A stretch of 28,091 nucleotides of DNA, taken from positions 1 through 28,091 of IMG/VR virus record IMGVR_UViG_3300017951_000090. The stretch is one strand, 5' to 3'. This document shows, piece after piece, positions 1 through 16,739 of this stretch. The position numbers and the translations under genes are program-made. The number at the start of each line of letters is the position of its first letter. Position 1 is the stretch's first letter. The notes under the pieces are model-generated. The model was not told the DNA's origin and searched no databases. It saw only the letters and a list, made by a program, of their open reading frames with translations. The DNA is from a virus.

Positions 1-495
1 ATGCAGAAAGATGCGTCTGACGATTGGACCGTTCAAACACTGGGAGCGTTGGACGGCGTAGGCAAATTTCTGGATTCAACCGAATTTCTTGTTCCAGTAT
101 CGCAATATGGAGCAGCGTCTGGAACATATGTTATATCCAATGCCGGAACTGAACCAACATTTACTACAACTATATTATCATACTATGTAGAACAGTCTGG
201 AACAATACATGCTAATTTTAATGGTGCCTCAGTAAATAATACACCGAGTGGAACAAATGCTCTTCAGTTTATTTTGCCATACGAAAGTGTTCAGACACAA
301 ACGATGAATTTCGCTAATGGGTATCTTGACGATGCAGGAACCCGGCGCCTAGTGTGCTATGCTATTGGAGCCGCCGGAAGTGGAAACGAAGACAGAGTAT
401 TTAATATTGTCGGTCATGCTGGCACAGCTGTATATAACAATGCAACCCTTGCGTCAGGGGATAGCTTTCGATGGGATGTGGTTTATAATACCTAG
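1..495 (+). CDS. Fibre-tip-like virion protein, 5' end outside window
   Basis: The reading frame is open at the first base, so the true start is probably upstream; the ATG at position 1 is more likely an internal codon. The 164 visible residues align by eye with the C-terminal two thirds of the protein at 1804-2523: both share KDASD-x-W near the left end, then DGVG-x-F, a Q-x-GA-SG/A segment and a P-x-FTT strand, followed by beta-rich, glycine/asparagine-rich sequence. A segment LQFILPYESV resembles LYLELPYEV in the protein at 24407-24964. This fits a beta-structured fibre or receptor-contact domain on the virion surface. No enzymatic motif is seen. It is followed after 9 bases by a small gene with a good ribosome site. 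Confidence 0.6.
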   Translation: MQKDASDDWTVQTLGALDGVGKFLDSTEFLVPVSQYGAASGTYVISNAGTEPTFTTTILSYYVEQSGTIHANFNGASVNNTPSGTNALQFILPYESVQTQTMNFANGYLDDAGTRRLVCYAIGAAGSGNEDRVFNIVGHAGTAVYNNATLASGDSFRWDVVYNT

Positions 496-6674: not shown

Positions 6675-6710
6675 AAAAAAATGACCGGATAGGGAACCAC
6701 TCCCATCCGG
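6673..6710 (-). terminator. Leftward terminator at the 3' end of the HTH gene
   Basis: CCGGAT-a-GGG (6685-6694) pairs with CCC-ATCCGG (6702-6710), a nine-pair stem with one bulged base and a 7-base loop. On the minus strand the stem is followed by TCA and then nine T residues. On the plus strand there is no T tract. So it stops transcription coming from the right, not the HTH transcript. Confidence 0.6.
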
Positions 6711-6726
6711 CCAACCTACACGCGAG

Positions 6727-6749
6727 TCTCACACTTCGTAGATGTGAGA
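6727..6749. promoter_or_regulatory. Operator-like inverted repeat
   Basis: TCTCACA and TGTGAGA are perfect 7-base arms with a 9-base spacer, a 23-base site of the size bound by dimeric phage repressors. It lies downstream of the HTH gene in the non-coding control region. It could also be a hairpin in a transcript crossing the region. Confidence 0.45.
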
Positions 6750-10884: not shown

Positions 10885-10935
10885 GCAAAATATTAAAAAT
10901 TGACGATTAACCAAAATACACGCGAGGGAACCACA

Positions 10936-11226
10936 ATGGCGTATATCGTATCAATGTTCTACAAAGACGAAAAAAGCATGAATATCAAGATCTTGGATGA
11001 AGAAATCGAGAAGTTCTTCACGGATTTGAACCAATCGCAAGTGTATATCCATCCCCGCACAGAACAGGGCTTTTGGACCAACATTGCCGACATCCGATAC
11101 ATCTTGACTAACAAAGAAGGAGAATCCGATGTCCAGTGTGTCAAAGAAGATCACGACAGCGTTGCTAAAATACCAGGAAACGCGGATGGAGCTGAAGAAG
11201 GCGAGGAAGCAGCTGAGGGAAGCTGA
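10936..11226 (+). CDS. Small hypothetical protein
   Basis: A 96-residue protein starting MAYIVSMFYKDEKSMNIKIL. The first 60 residues look like a small alpha/beta fold; the C-terminal 35 residues, from about residue 65, are acidic, low-complexity (EEGEEAAEGS end) and lie over the start of the next gene in another frame. GAGGGAACCACA precedes the ATG, a variant of the module found twice in the left operon. The conserved part is probably the N-terminal domain. No known family is recognised. Confidence 0.62.
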   Translation: MAYIVSMFYKDEKSMNIKILDEEIEKFFTDLNQSQVYIHPRTEQGFWTNIADIRYILTNKEGESDVQCVKEDHDSVAKIPGNADGAEEGEEAAEGS

Positions 11227-13184: not shown

Positions 13185-14505
13185 TGGACAAGGAATCACA
13201 ATCCCCGCATTTGTTCCCCGACCTTACCAGCTTGATTTTCTTCGTGCTATGGACAACGGCCTTAAGCGTGCCGTGCTGGTATGGCATCGTCGTGCTGGCA
13301 AGGAAATTGCATGCTTTAATTGGCTAGTCAAGCAGGCATATTGGCACCGCGTCGGTACTTACGTTTATTTCTTTCCAACTAGTACACTTGGTCGCCGAAT
13401 ATTATGGGATGGGGCTAATAAGGATGGCAAAAGATTCCTTGATTATATCCCAAAAGAGATTATTGATGGTAATATCAATAATAACGAGATGAAAGTGAGG
13501 CTGACAAATGGTAGCGTCATCCAAGTCATCGGCTCTGATCAAATCATCAACGTTGGGATTAACCCTGTTGGATGCGTCTTCTCGGAGTTTTCCCTACAGG
13601 ATCCTAAGTGCTGGAATTTCATACGTCCGATCCTTCGTGAAAACGACGGTTGGGCGGTCTTTAATTTCACACCACGCGGTAAAAACCATGCCTTCGACCT
13701 ATATCTTATGGCGAAGGAGAACCCGGAGTGGTATTGCCAAAAGCTGTCTATTAACGACACGGGTGTGCTCACTGATGCTGATATGGATGCCGAGCGCGCT
13801 GAGGGAATGTCCGAACACCTCCTGCAGCAAGAATATTACTGCAATTTTGATCAAGGTGCCGAGGGTGCTTACTATGCAAAACTCCTAAACCAGGCGGAAC
13901 TTGATGGAAGACTCACGCGGGTACCTTTTGACCCTGCTACTTGTGTGGATACTTACTGGGACCTTGGTGTATCAGACGAAACAGTTATCATCCTCGCTCA
14001 GAATGTTGGCAACGAAATCCACATCATCAACATGTATCGTAACCAGGGAGAGGGACTTAACCACTACGCCCGATGGTTGCAGGAGGAAGGAAACAAGTGG
14101 GGTTACGTTTATGGTACCCACTTTGCTCCTCACGACATCCAGGTTCGAGAGCTAGGCAGCGGAGCGCAAACCAGAAAGCAGATAGCCAAAGACCTCGGTA
14201 TCGACTTCGAGATTGTGCCGAATATACCGATTCAGGAAGGCATCGAGTCGGCACGTGGATTATTTCCCCGGCTATGGGTCGATTCGGATAAGTGCAGCTT
14301 CTTTATTAAGGCTGCGGAAAATTATCATAAACGTTACAATGAAAAGTTGAATGTATACAGCGATAAGCCTGTACATGATTGGTCATCTCACTGCATGGAC
14401 GCATTTCGGTATCTCGCGGTCTCCCAGAATAAAAAGCGACGTGGCCGCATGACGGAAGACGAAGCAAATTTAATGGAGAATATGTACAGCTTTAGGCATG
14501 TATAA
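13168..14505 (+). CDS. Terminase large subunit (packaging ATPase-nuclease)
   Basis: A 445-residue protein with both functions visible. ATPase: adenine-binding Q motif at RPYQ (about 18-21), Walker A variant WHRRAGKE (39-46), and Walker B region VGCVFSEF with catalytic Glu140 (134-141). Nuclease: D261 and D265 in VDTYWDLGVSD, then HDIQVRE, and D411 in the final CMDAFRYLA. Large terminases drive DNA into the procapsid and cut it at the end of a headful. Start at MKKRNN (GGAAGAG upstream) is chosen; another frame start lies 12 codons upstream inside the small subunit. This protein is on the short side for the family but no motif is missing. Confidence 0.93.
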   Translation: MKKRNNGQGITIPAFVPRPYQLDFLRAMDNGLKRAVLVWHRRAGKEIACFNWLVKQAYWHRVGTYVYFFPTSTLGRRILWDGANKDGKRFLDYIPKEIIDGNINNNEMKVRLTNGSVIQVIGSDQIINVGINPVGCVFSEFSLQDPKCWNFIRPILRENDGWAVFNFTPRGKNHAFDLYLMAKENPEWYCQKLSINDTGVLTDADMDAERAEGMSEHLLQQEYYCNFDQGAEGAYYAKLLNQAELDGRLTRVPFDPATCVDTYWDLGVSDETVIILAQNVGNEIHIINMYRNQGEGLNHYARWLQEEGNKWGYVYGTHFAPHDIQVRELGSGAQTRKQIAKDLGIDFEIVPNIPIQEGIESARGLFPRLWVDSDKCSFFIKAAENYHKRYNEKLNVYSDKPVHDWSSHCMDAFRYLAVSQNKKRRGRMTEDEANLMENMYSFRHV

Positions 14506-14528
14506 AATTCTTGCTTGTTGTATAAAAT
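14499..14528 (+). repeat. Direct repeat TGTATAAAAT, 20 bases apart
   Basis: TGTATAAAAT occurs at 14499-14508 and again at 14519-14528, overlapping the end of the terminase gene. Each contains TATAAA, a -10-like hexamer, but no -35 hexamer is visible at the usual distance. It could be part of a phage-specific late promoter or the AT-rich entry to the structured leader that follows. Confidence 0.45.
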
Positions 14529-14583
14529 GAAGCAACGCCCTGAACCACTTTATTGGGCACAACCTATACGCGAGGCGGACTGA
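14527..14583 (+). CDS. Possible 18-codon leader peptide
   Basis: A short frame reading MKQRPEPLYWAQPIREAD ends in TGA at the base of the structured leader. Its codons cover the 5' arm of the first leader stem (GCGAGG), so ribosomes on it would open that stem. No ribosome site is seen before the ATG. At this length it may be chance, but position makes it relevant to control of the portal gene. Confidence 0.25.
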   Translation: MKQRPEPLYWAQPIREAD

Positions 14584-14664
14584 TCATCCTAAGCTATCCC
14601 GCTAGATAGCCCTCGCATCCTTTCCATGGCGGTGGAAGGTTAAATACCGCTTGTTGGGATGCGA
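14570..14664 (+). ncRNA. Structured leader RNA of the portal gene, with pseudoknot
   Basis: By eye the 158-base gap between terminase and portal can fold as follows. Stem A: GCGAGG (14570-14575) with CCTCGC (14611-14616), enclosing a hairpin GCTATC (14593-14598) with GATAGC (14605-14610). Stem B: TCGCATCC (14613-14620) with GGATGCGA (14657-14664), eight pairs, whose last base is the A of the portal ATG. Stems A and B share 14613-14616, so only one can form. Inside B, TTCCA (14622-14626) pairs with TGGAA (14633-14637), and its loop bases GCGG (14629-14632) pair with CCGC (14647-14650): an H-type pseudoknot with an A-rich 9-base third loop. The portal ATG has no ordinary ribosome site. A translational switch or a structured element in late mRNA is the likely reading. 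No known RNA family was recognised. Confidence 0.55.
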
Positions 14665-16739
14665 TGGCTACTGATCAAAACATCATCAAAGACTTCGATT
14701 CGTTCTACAACGAAGCCTACTATGCGTGGGATGCGTTCTACCCCCTCGCGGAACGAGATCTAAGGTTTTATCTTGGTGATCAGTGGGATGAACAAGAAAA
14801 AAGACAGCTCTTCCAAGAGGGTCGATCGACGTTCGTTTTCAACCGTGTTAGGCGAAACATTAACATGGTTACGGGTTATCAGCGAAAGCATCGCCTCTCT
14901 TCTGTAGTCGTTCCACAGGAAGATTCCGACCAACAGACTGCCGACCAGCTTAGCTCCCTCCTGCTTTACACGATGAATGCCGCCGATGGCTATCAGACGG
15001 TTAGCGATTGCTTCGGTGGAGCGCTAAAAACGGGGTGGAACCTTGCTTCGGTATGGGTTGACTACCGCGATGACCCCATCAACGGCGACATCAAGTTCAA
15101 TCGCGAGCCTTACAACTCCTTCATTCTCGATCCCTACTTCACAAAACTCGACTTTTCAGACTGCGGATACATCCTGCGCAGAAAATACCTCAGCGTCGAC
15201 CATGTAGCTAGCCTTCTTCCAGGTCAAGAAAAGGAAGTGTACGACCTTTACAAGATCGGATGGGAACGCGACGACAAGTTTACGTGGCTCCCCTACCAAA
15301 GACAGCCTAACGGCCAAGAAATGATGGCCTATTCCGAGATGTACCAGCAGAAATGGCGCAACGTGCCGATGTTGGTCGACATGGAAACCGGTGAGTCTAT
15401 GGAATTCGAGGTCGAAGGCGACGTGATGGGTGCCTTCCTCGAGCAATACCCTCAGCTTAAGGTCGTCGACAAGCCCAAGCGCTATATCGAAAAGTACGTA
15501 ATCGTCAATGACCAGGCGATGCGCCAAGAAATTAACCCCTACGACCTGGACGAATACCCATTTGTGCCCTTCACGGCAATATTCGAGCCAGAATCTGACC
15601 AGTGGGGCCTAAAGGTGCAGTCCCTCTCGAGGTGCATGATCGATCCTCAGCGAGAGGGGAATCGTCGGCGCAGCCAGATGATCGACCTGCTTGATAGTCA
15701 AATAAATAGTGGATGGATTGCAGAAGAAAATAGCGTCGTTAACCCAAGAAGCCTTTTCCAGACATCACAAGGTAAGGTCATATGGAAGCGCGCCGATGCT
15801 CCTCCTGGCGCATTGGAGAAGATCCCTCCTGCGCAGATTCCGCCTTCCATGTTCCAACTACAGGAACTGTTTGACCGGGATATGATGGAAATCGCTGGAG
15901 TTAACGACGCTGCTTTTGGACAGACAGAGACTGCCGGCGATTCCGGTGTCATGATGATGCTCCGACAAGGCGCGGCGCTCGTCAACCTTCAAGAACTCTT
16001 CGACAACCTCCGTTTCTCTCAGAAGGCTTTAAGCAAAAAGGTCATCAAGCTGATTCAGAAGTGGAGACCGCAGAAGGTTCAACGCATTCTGAATGAAGAG
16101 CCAACGCAGCAATTCTACGACGCCAACTTCACGAAATACGACATCACGGTTCAGGAAGGCATTCTCACCGACACCCAGCGTCAGATGTACTTCCGTCAGC
16201 TCGTCGATCTTCGTCAGCTTGGCGCTCCTGTTACCGGCGAAATGCTGGCAAAAGCCGCGCCTATCCAGGGCAAGTCCGAGTACATCGAGCAGCTTTCCGA
16301 ACTGGAACAGCAACAGGCGCAGCAAGCTCAGCAACAGCAACAGATTCAGGCGCAGGTGCTCGACAGTCAGCGTCAGATGTCCCAGGCAAAAGCAATTTCA
16401 GACATAGCCCTTTCGAAAGAACGCTTTACCAGAGCTGTGGCCAATATGGGCCTAGAAGACGAGCGAGCAAGTGCGGCGGTAGAAAACCGCGCCGACTTTG
16501 CTTTGAAGCGAGCTAAGGCCATGAAAGAACTTCAGTCGTTGGATGATGACCGGCTGCTTAAATATCTGACGATCATTCGCATGATGGAAGAGACCAGTCG
16601 GGTGAAAGAAGAGCAAGTCAAAGCCGACGACGTACAGATTTCTGCGAGGGCTGCAGAGCCTCAGCAGGAAGTCCCTGCGGTAGGCGGTCTATTGCAGGAA
16701 TTACCCGAACAACCCCCCATGGAGGTCGACAATGCGTAA
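14664..16739 (+). CDS. Portal protein, P22-type
   Basis: A 691-residue portal. The N-terminus resembles the P22-like portals: WDAFYPLAERDLRFYLGDQW at about 23-42, then STFVFNRVRRNINMVTGYQR, a region that anchors these portals, and a long middle ending in AALVNLQELFDNLRFSQKAL. From about 545 the tail is glutamine-rich (QQAQQAQQQQQ) and then a long coiled coil, like the barrel of P22 portals. Twelve copies form the ring through which DNA enters and leaves and to which adaptor proteins bind. The ATG at 14664 is preceded by a structured RNA and no clear ribosome site; an upstream ATG at 14659 is in another frame. It overlaps the next gene by 8 bases. Confidence 0.92.
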   Translation: MATDQNIIKDFDSFYNEAYYAWDAFYPLAERDLRFYLGDQWDEQEKRQLFQEGRSTFVFNRVRRNINMVTGYQRKHRLSSVVVPQEDSDQQTADQLSSLLLYTMNAADGYQTVSDCFGGALKTGWNLASVWVDYRDDPINGDIKFNREPYNSFILDPYFTKLDFSDCGYILRRKYLSVDHVASLLPGQEKEVYDLYKIGWERDDKFTWLPYQRQPNGQEMMAYSEMYQQKWRNVPMLVDMETGESMEFEVEGDVMGAFLEQYPQLKVVDKPKRYIEKYVIVNDQAMRQEINPYDLDEYPFVPFTAIFEPESDQWGLKVQSLSRCMIDPQREGNRRRSQMIDLLDSQINSGWIAEENSVVNPRSLFQTSQGKVIWKRADAPPGALEKIPPAQIPPSMFQLQELFDRDMMEIAGVNDAAFGQTETAGDSGVMMMLRQGAALVNLQELFDNLRFSQKALSKKVIKLIQKWRPQKVQRILNEEPTQQFYDANFTKYDITVQEGILTDTQRQMYFRQLVDLRQLGAPVTGEMLAKAAPIQGKSEYIEQLSELEQQQAQQAQQQQQIQAQVLDSQRQMSQAKAISDIALSKERFTRAVANMGLEDERASAAVENRADFALKRAKAMKELQSLDDDRLLKYLTIIRMMEETSRVKEEQVKADDVQISARAAEPQQEVPAVGGLLQELPEQPPMEVDNA

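Follow-up and report, generated by a model that had tools for sequence, protein, structure and literature searches.

A conserved RNA family with two competing foldings in front of portal genes of uncultured phages

Introduction

Cobalamin riboswitches have a kissing contact (L5-L13) in which a loop from the upstream domain pairs with that of a hairpin further downstream, close to the translation start, and loops with a UNR U-turn are typical of those that initiate RNA-RNA pairing. A particle of phage MS2 requires very few copies of its maturation (A) protein. In the leader for this protein a transient structure permits translation before the stable fold is reached (cited in PMC6733600). Hairpin loops can also join two RNA molecules: palindromic loop dimers are formed by the HIV-1 DIS, MoMuSV SL2 and the hatchet ribozyme, the last of these through four bases, and the palindromes at such interfaces are known to span two to six bases (PMC7357161).

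The window analysed here, a stretch of 28,091 nucleotides of viral DNA, contains a gap between a terminase ORF, which ends at 14505, and a portal gene that starts at 14664. An earlier note on this DNA proposed that two stems, A and B, compete in the gap for a common strand and thereby open or hide the portal start. Here we compare the leader with its homologues and describe a kissing helix and a self-complementary loop within it. The leader represents an RNA family absent from Rfam 15, and by comparison of the homologues both the family and its two foldings are well supported.

Results

A structure of the kind proposed should be more stable than shuffled sequence. This holds for positions 14506-14690 (185 nt, z -3.0), and the 99-nt core alone is only modestly more stable (z -1.6; homologues -1.2 to -4.1). 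Because folding energy alone would not decide the matter, relatives were collected. Searching viral contigs for portals yielded about 80 distinct ones, and pattern scans contributed a few more. The RNA was located by eye and then with a covariance model, R1, built from 12 seed copies. R1 gave 37 matches in 82 sources (518 kb), corresponding to 36 places, one per genome, as contigs L013 and L075 are one and the same. Counting the window and one copy clipped by its contig end, 36 viral contigs carry the same RNA ahead of a start codon. The window core scores 95.7 bits against the covariance model (E 2.6e-19), the window itself being among the seeds. Model R2 returned nothing more from 569 kb of other loci at E < 0.3 except the window itself. 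One copy, L173, is a blind member of the family, found after the model was fixed (77 bits with R2). It carries stem A, hairpin 2a with the loop CUGAUCA, the kissing pair CCGAAU/AUUCGG and stem B, and its tail CCGAGU complements the same hairpin 3 loop, a new combination that fits every helix and agrees with the predictions.

Family members are all found on uncultured contigs. A DNA search of cultured phages gave no match, and the nearest cultured-phage portals in a protein search share only ~22% identity. Some related phages do without the RNA. On the portal tree its presence changes 14 times, at least seven of these changes being forced by supported branches, which indicates that it is often lost or gained. 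The earlier note recognised no known RNA family here, and this is borne out by Rfam 15: the window and nine relatives gave no match at the gathering threshold, and a relaxed search of 14480-14700 returned only a chance microRNA match (E 1.4). No earlier description was found in the literature; the catalogue of Fremin and Kyrpides, reportedly a large published set of structured RNAs predicted from phage contigs, lay outside this search and may already list the RNA.

The features of the leader and its surroundings are collected in Table 1. Stem A encloses hairpins 2a and 2b. Both stems of the earlier note are present in the sequence, stem B with all eight pairs up to the A of the ATG, as are its hairpin 14622-14626/14633-14637 and the 4-bp pairing 14629-14632/14647-14650. 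Alignments were made with a covariance model, MAFFT alone having misplaced hairpin 3, and pairs were counted from structure-aware alignments and hand-checked segments of copies that are related to each other. In alignment A4, which holds 36 homologues and counts the kissing helix, 97.6% of cells are paired over 30 pairs, against 76.5% in shuffled and 37-51% in slid controls, and 28 of the 30 pairs change on both sides. This comparison excludes chance. In stem B 91.6% of cells are paired and six of the seven counted pairs change on both sides; its outer three pairs lie outside the aligning model. The covariation in relatives that the earlier note looked to is therefore present in stem A, stem B and the structure as a whole. 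Departures from Watson-Crick pairing in the stems are G-U in 27 cases and A-C in 4, which points to an RNA of the + strand.

Table 1 Features of the portal leader, related elements and neighbouring genes. Coordinates are those of the window unless a contig is named.
Feature	Position	Strand	Remarks
RNA family core	14568..14666	+	stem A through portal AUG; 36 distinct homologues
Stem A, 5' strand GCGAGG	14570..14575	+	partner 14611-14616; 100% of cells paired, 5/6 pairs change on both sides
Stem A, 3' strand CCTCGC	14611..14616	+	14613-14616 common to stem B
Hairpin 2a GGA-CTGATCA-TCC	14577..14589	+	95.2% paired; both-side changes in 3/3 pairs
Hairpin 2a loop, N-U-N-R	14580..14586	+	central four bases self-complementary; candidate dimer contact
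Hairpin 2b GCTATC-CCGCTA-GATAGC	14593..14610	+	99.4% paired; both-side changes in 5/5 pairs
Hairpin 2b loop, kissing strand CCGCTA	14599..14604	+	partner 14627-14632
Hairpin 3 CTTTCCA-TGGCGG-TGGAAGG	14620..14639	+	99.5% paired; both-side changes in 6/6 pairs
Hairpin 3 loop TGGCGG	14627..14632	+	partner 14599-14604 (state K) or 14647-14651 (state L)
Downstream competitor CCGCT	14647..14651	+	mimic of 2b loop; p 0.01 against shuffled tails in the window
Stem B, 5' strand	14613..14620	+	partner 14657-14664
Stem B, 3' strand GGATGCG + A of AUG	14657..14664	+	sole (weak) ribosome-site-like bases here
Upstream hairpin H1, GCCC-TGAACCACTTTATT-GGGC	14537..14558	+	conserved loop GAACCAC; also before portals without the switch
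Leader module copies	14537-14558 with 14566-14575; 6684-6709 with 6718-6727; 10917-10937; L113 ~195-225		
Second structured-looking RNA	upstream of portal in L113, L116, L134, L145, L152, L153		
Portal gene	14664..16739	+	691 aa, P22-like; PF16510 271.6 bits, phrog_156
Winged-helix genes	L023:2183-2482, L137:2197-2502		~100 aa; two separate clades
HNH-like gene	L013:2321-2950	-	inserted antisense in the gap, directly behind the RNA and first codons

The central contact of the structure, overlooked by the earlier note, is a 6-bp kissing helix between the loops of hairpins 2b (CCGCUA) and 3 (UGGCGG), found in nearly every copy. It is 97.0% paired and five of its six pairs change on both sides; as the aligning model contained no kissing pairs, this count was not fitted. 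Sequence variants include CCGUAU/AUACGG, CUGCGU/GCGCAG, CUACCA/UGGUAG, CCAGCA/UGCUGG and CCACCA/UGGUGG. The hairpin 3 loop has two rival partners, this upstream loop and the downstream CCGCU. Over the family the loop-to-tail complementarity sums to 225 against a null of 158 (sd 6.2), a difference inflated by the kinship of the copies. No more than about half of the copies show the downstream pairing of state L clearly, and it is missing in L008, L100-L102, L111, L115, L125, L126 and L132. The H-type pseudoknot of the earlier note thus stands in part: its downstream pairing exceeds chance over the set, but it is far from general, and it may form a plain extension of the hairpin instead. Judged from the aligned copies, the upstream kissing partner of the hairpin 3 loop is better conserved than the downstream one.

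Two states can be defined from these pairings. State K combines stem A with the kissing helix and leaves the start freer; in state L stem B forms and the hairpin 3 loop is paired downstream. Having the strand 14613-14616 and the loop 14627-14632 in common, K and L are mutually exclusive conserved foldings, as expected of a two-state cis translation switch, and the start-hiding fold of such a switch is predicted in stem B, which spans 14657-14664. Three-way changes keep both pairings (GAG/CTC/GAG in L004/L010 and L101; GCA/TGC/GCA in L018). L126 lacks stem B, and in L102, L105, L132, L142 and L144 this stem is shifted. Energy models that leave out kissing favour a long hairpin for the window and for several of the relatives, with stem B and the loop-to-tail helix stacked on each other. 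When an approximate kissing term is added, itself rough, K and L lie a median of ~0.7 kcal/mol apart in 26 copies (range -9.5 to +13). Folding at growing length, computed at equilibrium without kinetics or pseudoknots for the window and 12 copies, kept the stem A probability at ~1.0 up to the final bases ahead of the AUG, and a few bases further on it was stem B that stood at ~1.0. This pattern holds in the window and most of the 12 copies, the exceptions being L105, where stem B never forms, and L014, L117 and L098, which are mixed. With K enforced, bases -6 to +3 were unpaired with a mean probability of 0.44 instead of 0.20, the value rising in 31 of 34 copies; for the window start, the predicted accessibility is 0.11 in the free fold and 0.47 with K enforced. 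These predictions suggest that K would be the ON and L the OFF state. The proposal that stem A frees and stem B hides the start is accordingly strengthened as to its two states, by covariation in both folds, the three-way changes, the near-equal energies and the passage from A to B with length; the control is not strictly one of portal, as set out below.

The portal start has only a weak ribosome site, GGGAT, which lies inside stem B and pairs with the anti-SD at -4.0 kcal/mol, compared with about -6 to -12 for many other genes of the window. The earlier remark that the portal ATG lacks a normal ribosome site is therefore roughly right. In L132, L142 and L143 the AUG lies within GGAUG, complementary to the stem B 5' strand. 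We considered whether the RNA merely substitutes for a missing ribosome site; portals with and without it did not differ significantly in ribosome-site strength (p 0.10). The GCGAGG of stem A was likewise rejected as a ribosome site delivered by the fold, GAGG being lost in L102, L105, L117, L127, L132, L142 and L144.

A second feature overlooked by the earlier note is the self-complementary loop of hairpin 2a. This loop has seven bases in all copies, and its U and the purine two bases further are invariant. The centre is GATC in 27 copies, AATT in 4 and AGCT in 4 and never a non-palindrome, so that it is self-complementary in 100%, against 86% in shuffles. On the portal tree the loop word switches six times, and every switch took two or four substitutions made in concert; self-complementarity is thus kept through coordinated changes, as would be expected of a palindromic kissing dimer. 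No consistent second site for the loop word was found nearby. Pairing with portal codons 4-5 (GATC) was rejected, since the site is absent in several copies, including all those with AGCT. As adjacent bases cannot pair within the hairpin and no consistent second site lies nearby, the simplest interpretation is that two RNAs join, and loop 2a probably lets two such RNAs dimerise. Dimerisation may in turn stabilise K. In some copies the loop centre has only A-T pairs, and there the dimer contact would be weak.

A start codon adjoins every full copy of the RNA or lies a few bases off, L110 and L126 being the least regular. Pattern scans for the RNA in other settings gave true matches only behind a terminase or before a portal; the remaining matches lacked the fold and were rejected. 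The next gene is usually portal, but L023 and L137 have a winged-helix gene of ~100 codons that separates the RNA from portal and overlaps the start of the latter. In L013 the RNA is parted from portal by an inserted HNH-like gene, assigned from reading its sequence and without a Pfam match, and the portal there has a new strong ribosome site (-9.6). An HNH-like gene is likewise inserted antisense upstream of portal in L060 (JAAKFB010000001.1, 36,464 bases). This related contig is of phage size and is placed in a metagenome-assembled genome of Chlamydiae, which reflects either a host link or a binning error; no copy of the switch RNA was found in that genome.

Two further elements were observed in this phage group. 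A leader module is repeated in front of several genes; it consists of a hairpin with the loop GAACCAC (H1 in the window) and, after it, the sequence ACACGYGAG(G). Where a portal has no switch, the module closes with a GAGG that is spaced from the AUG as a ribosome site would be; phages that carry the switch have it between this GAGG and the AUG. In a sister clade the terminase-portal gap holds a second, different structured-looking RNA, GAGGGAATC...GTAGGRAG...GCTAGCRCTYCCG.CCCTC, for which no Rfam match was found in L113, L134 and L152, the three scanned.

Discussion

On balance we favour, with some reserve, a reading of the leader as a cis-acting limiter of translation of the next gene, normally portal, that works by switching between two folds. 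Because stem A is transcribed first, the nascent RNA should open first. It would enter K, in which stem A closes around hairpins 2a and 2b, the 2b loop kisses the hairpin 3 loop and the start codon is comparatively free. Later K would relax to L, in which part of the stem A strand pairs instead with the AUG region, up to the start codon itself, and hides the start. We infer this open-then-closed order, and with it a timing role for the kissing contact, which would set the duration of the open state. The purpose may be a low portal dosage. There is one portal vertex per head, and how portal supply is kept low is an open practical question that this RNA makes directly testable.

Protein-mediated control is the main rival. 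Here a phage protein, which might be portal, terminase or some other head protein, would bind one of the two folds and repress or activate translation, as in autogenous control; the leader would be its operator, and the folds the bound and unbound forms. The conserved structure, in which unpaired sequence is scarce apart from loop 2a, and the position before a structural gene would suit an operator, and the upstream hairpin with its invariant GAACCAC loop resembles a second binding site. We nevertheless think an operator unlikely, if worth serious consideration: the sequence indicates no protein partner, the binding of one protein leaves the self-complementarity of loop 2a unexplained, and the RNA also stands before the winged-helix gene in L023 and L137. 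That self-complementarity would find a use in a dimerisation-sensitive mRNA switch, in which loop 2a joins two leaders and locks the kissing fold, so that portal output follows the concentration or age of the messenger. We know of no dsDNA phage in which such a dosage control of the head vertex operates; we offer this idea tentatively and regard it as rather doubtful.

We give little credence to a trans-acting structural RNA that is merely encoded before portal, for example a self-associating packaging RNA like phi29 pRNA, even though it would account for loop 2a and for the location between terminase and portal. The start codon always adjoins the RNA and the last helix includes the start region, and the phage has a large terminase of ordinary type (phrog_2 match). 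Only a single loop is self-complementary; the complementary pair 14599-14604/14627-14632, which a phi29-type ring would need, exists but is near enough to form within one molecule. A small-molecule riboswitch or self-cleaving ribozyme, which the compact fold and the pseudoknot-like tertiary contact beside the start codon might suggest, is very improbable because no unpaired core is conserved, the linkers outside loop 2a varying freely, and Rfam gave no match even at the relaxed threshold. Equally improbable is a DNA element, such as a packaging or replication site with inverted repeats as protein sites: palindromic tetranucleotides and the adjacent terminase gene would fit it, but the G-U excess over A-C is the asymmetry expected of an RNA of this strand, and the competing non-nested pairings and the constantly adjoining start codon speak against it.

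Beyond the switching role that we favour, the co-varying kissing loops and palindromic loops of the family form a natural series on which RNA switching and RNA dimers can usefully be studied. Among known systems, GOLLD and ROOL RNAs (PMC12286853) are also phage-encoded and have kissing loops, which serve self-association there; they are large free RNAs near tRNA genes, whereas the leader is ~100 nt long and adjoins a start codon. Like phi29 pRNA (PMC7357161), it is a phage RNA tied by location to portal and packaging and has loop-loop contacts, but pRNA is a free molecule whose two complementary loops differ from each other, and the leader has one palindrome and lies against a start codon. Loop 2a shares with HIV-1 DIS, MoMuSV SL2 and the hatchet ribozyme a self-complementary hairpin loop as a candidate dimer interface; unlike theirs, its dimer is only putative and in some copies would rely on A-T pairs. 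In comparison with cobalamin riboswitches, the leader has no conserved ligand pocket and no Rfam similarity and is much smaller, yet it has the same kissing arrangement as the L5-L13 platform. The MS2 maturation leader belongs to an RNA phage, has a different fold and lacks both kissing helix and palindromic loop. The logic of the proposed switch, here drawn from equilibrium folding, nevertheless resembles that of MS2: in both, translation would be possible before a stable, start-hiding fold is formed.
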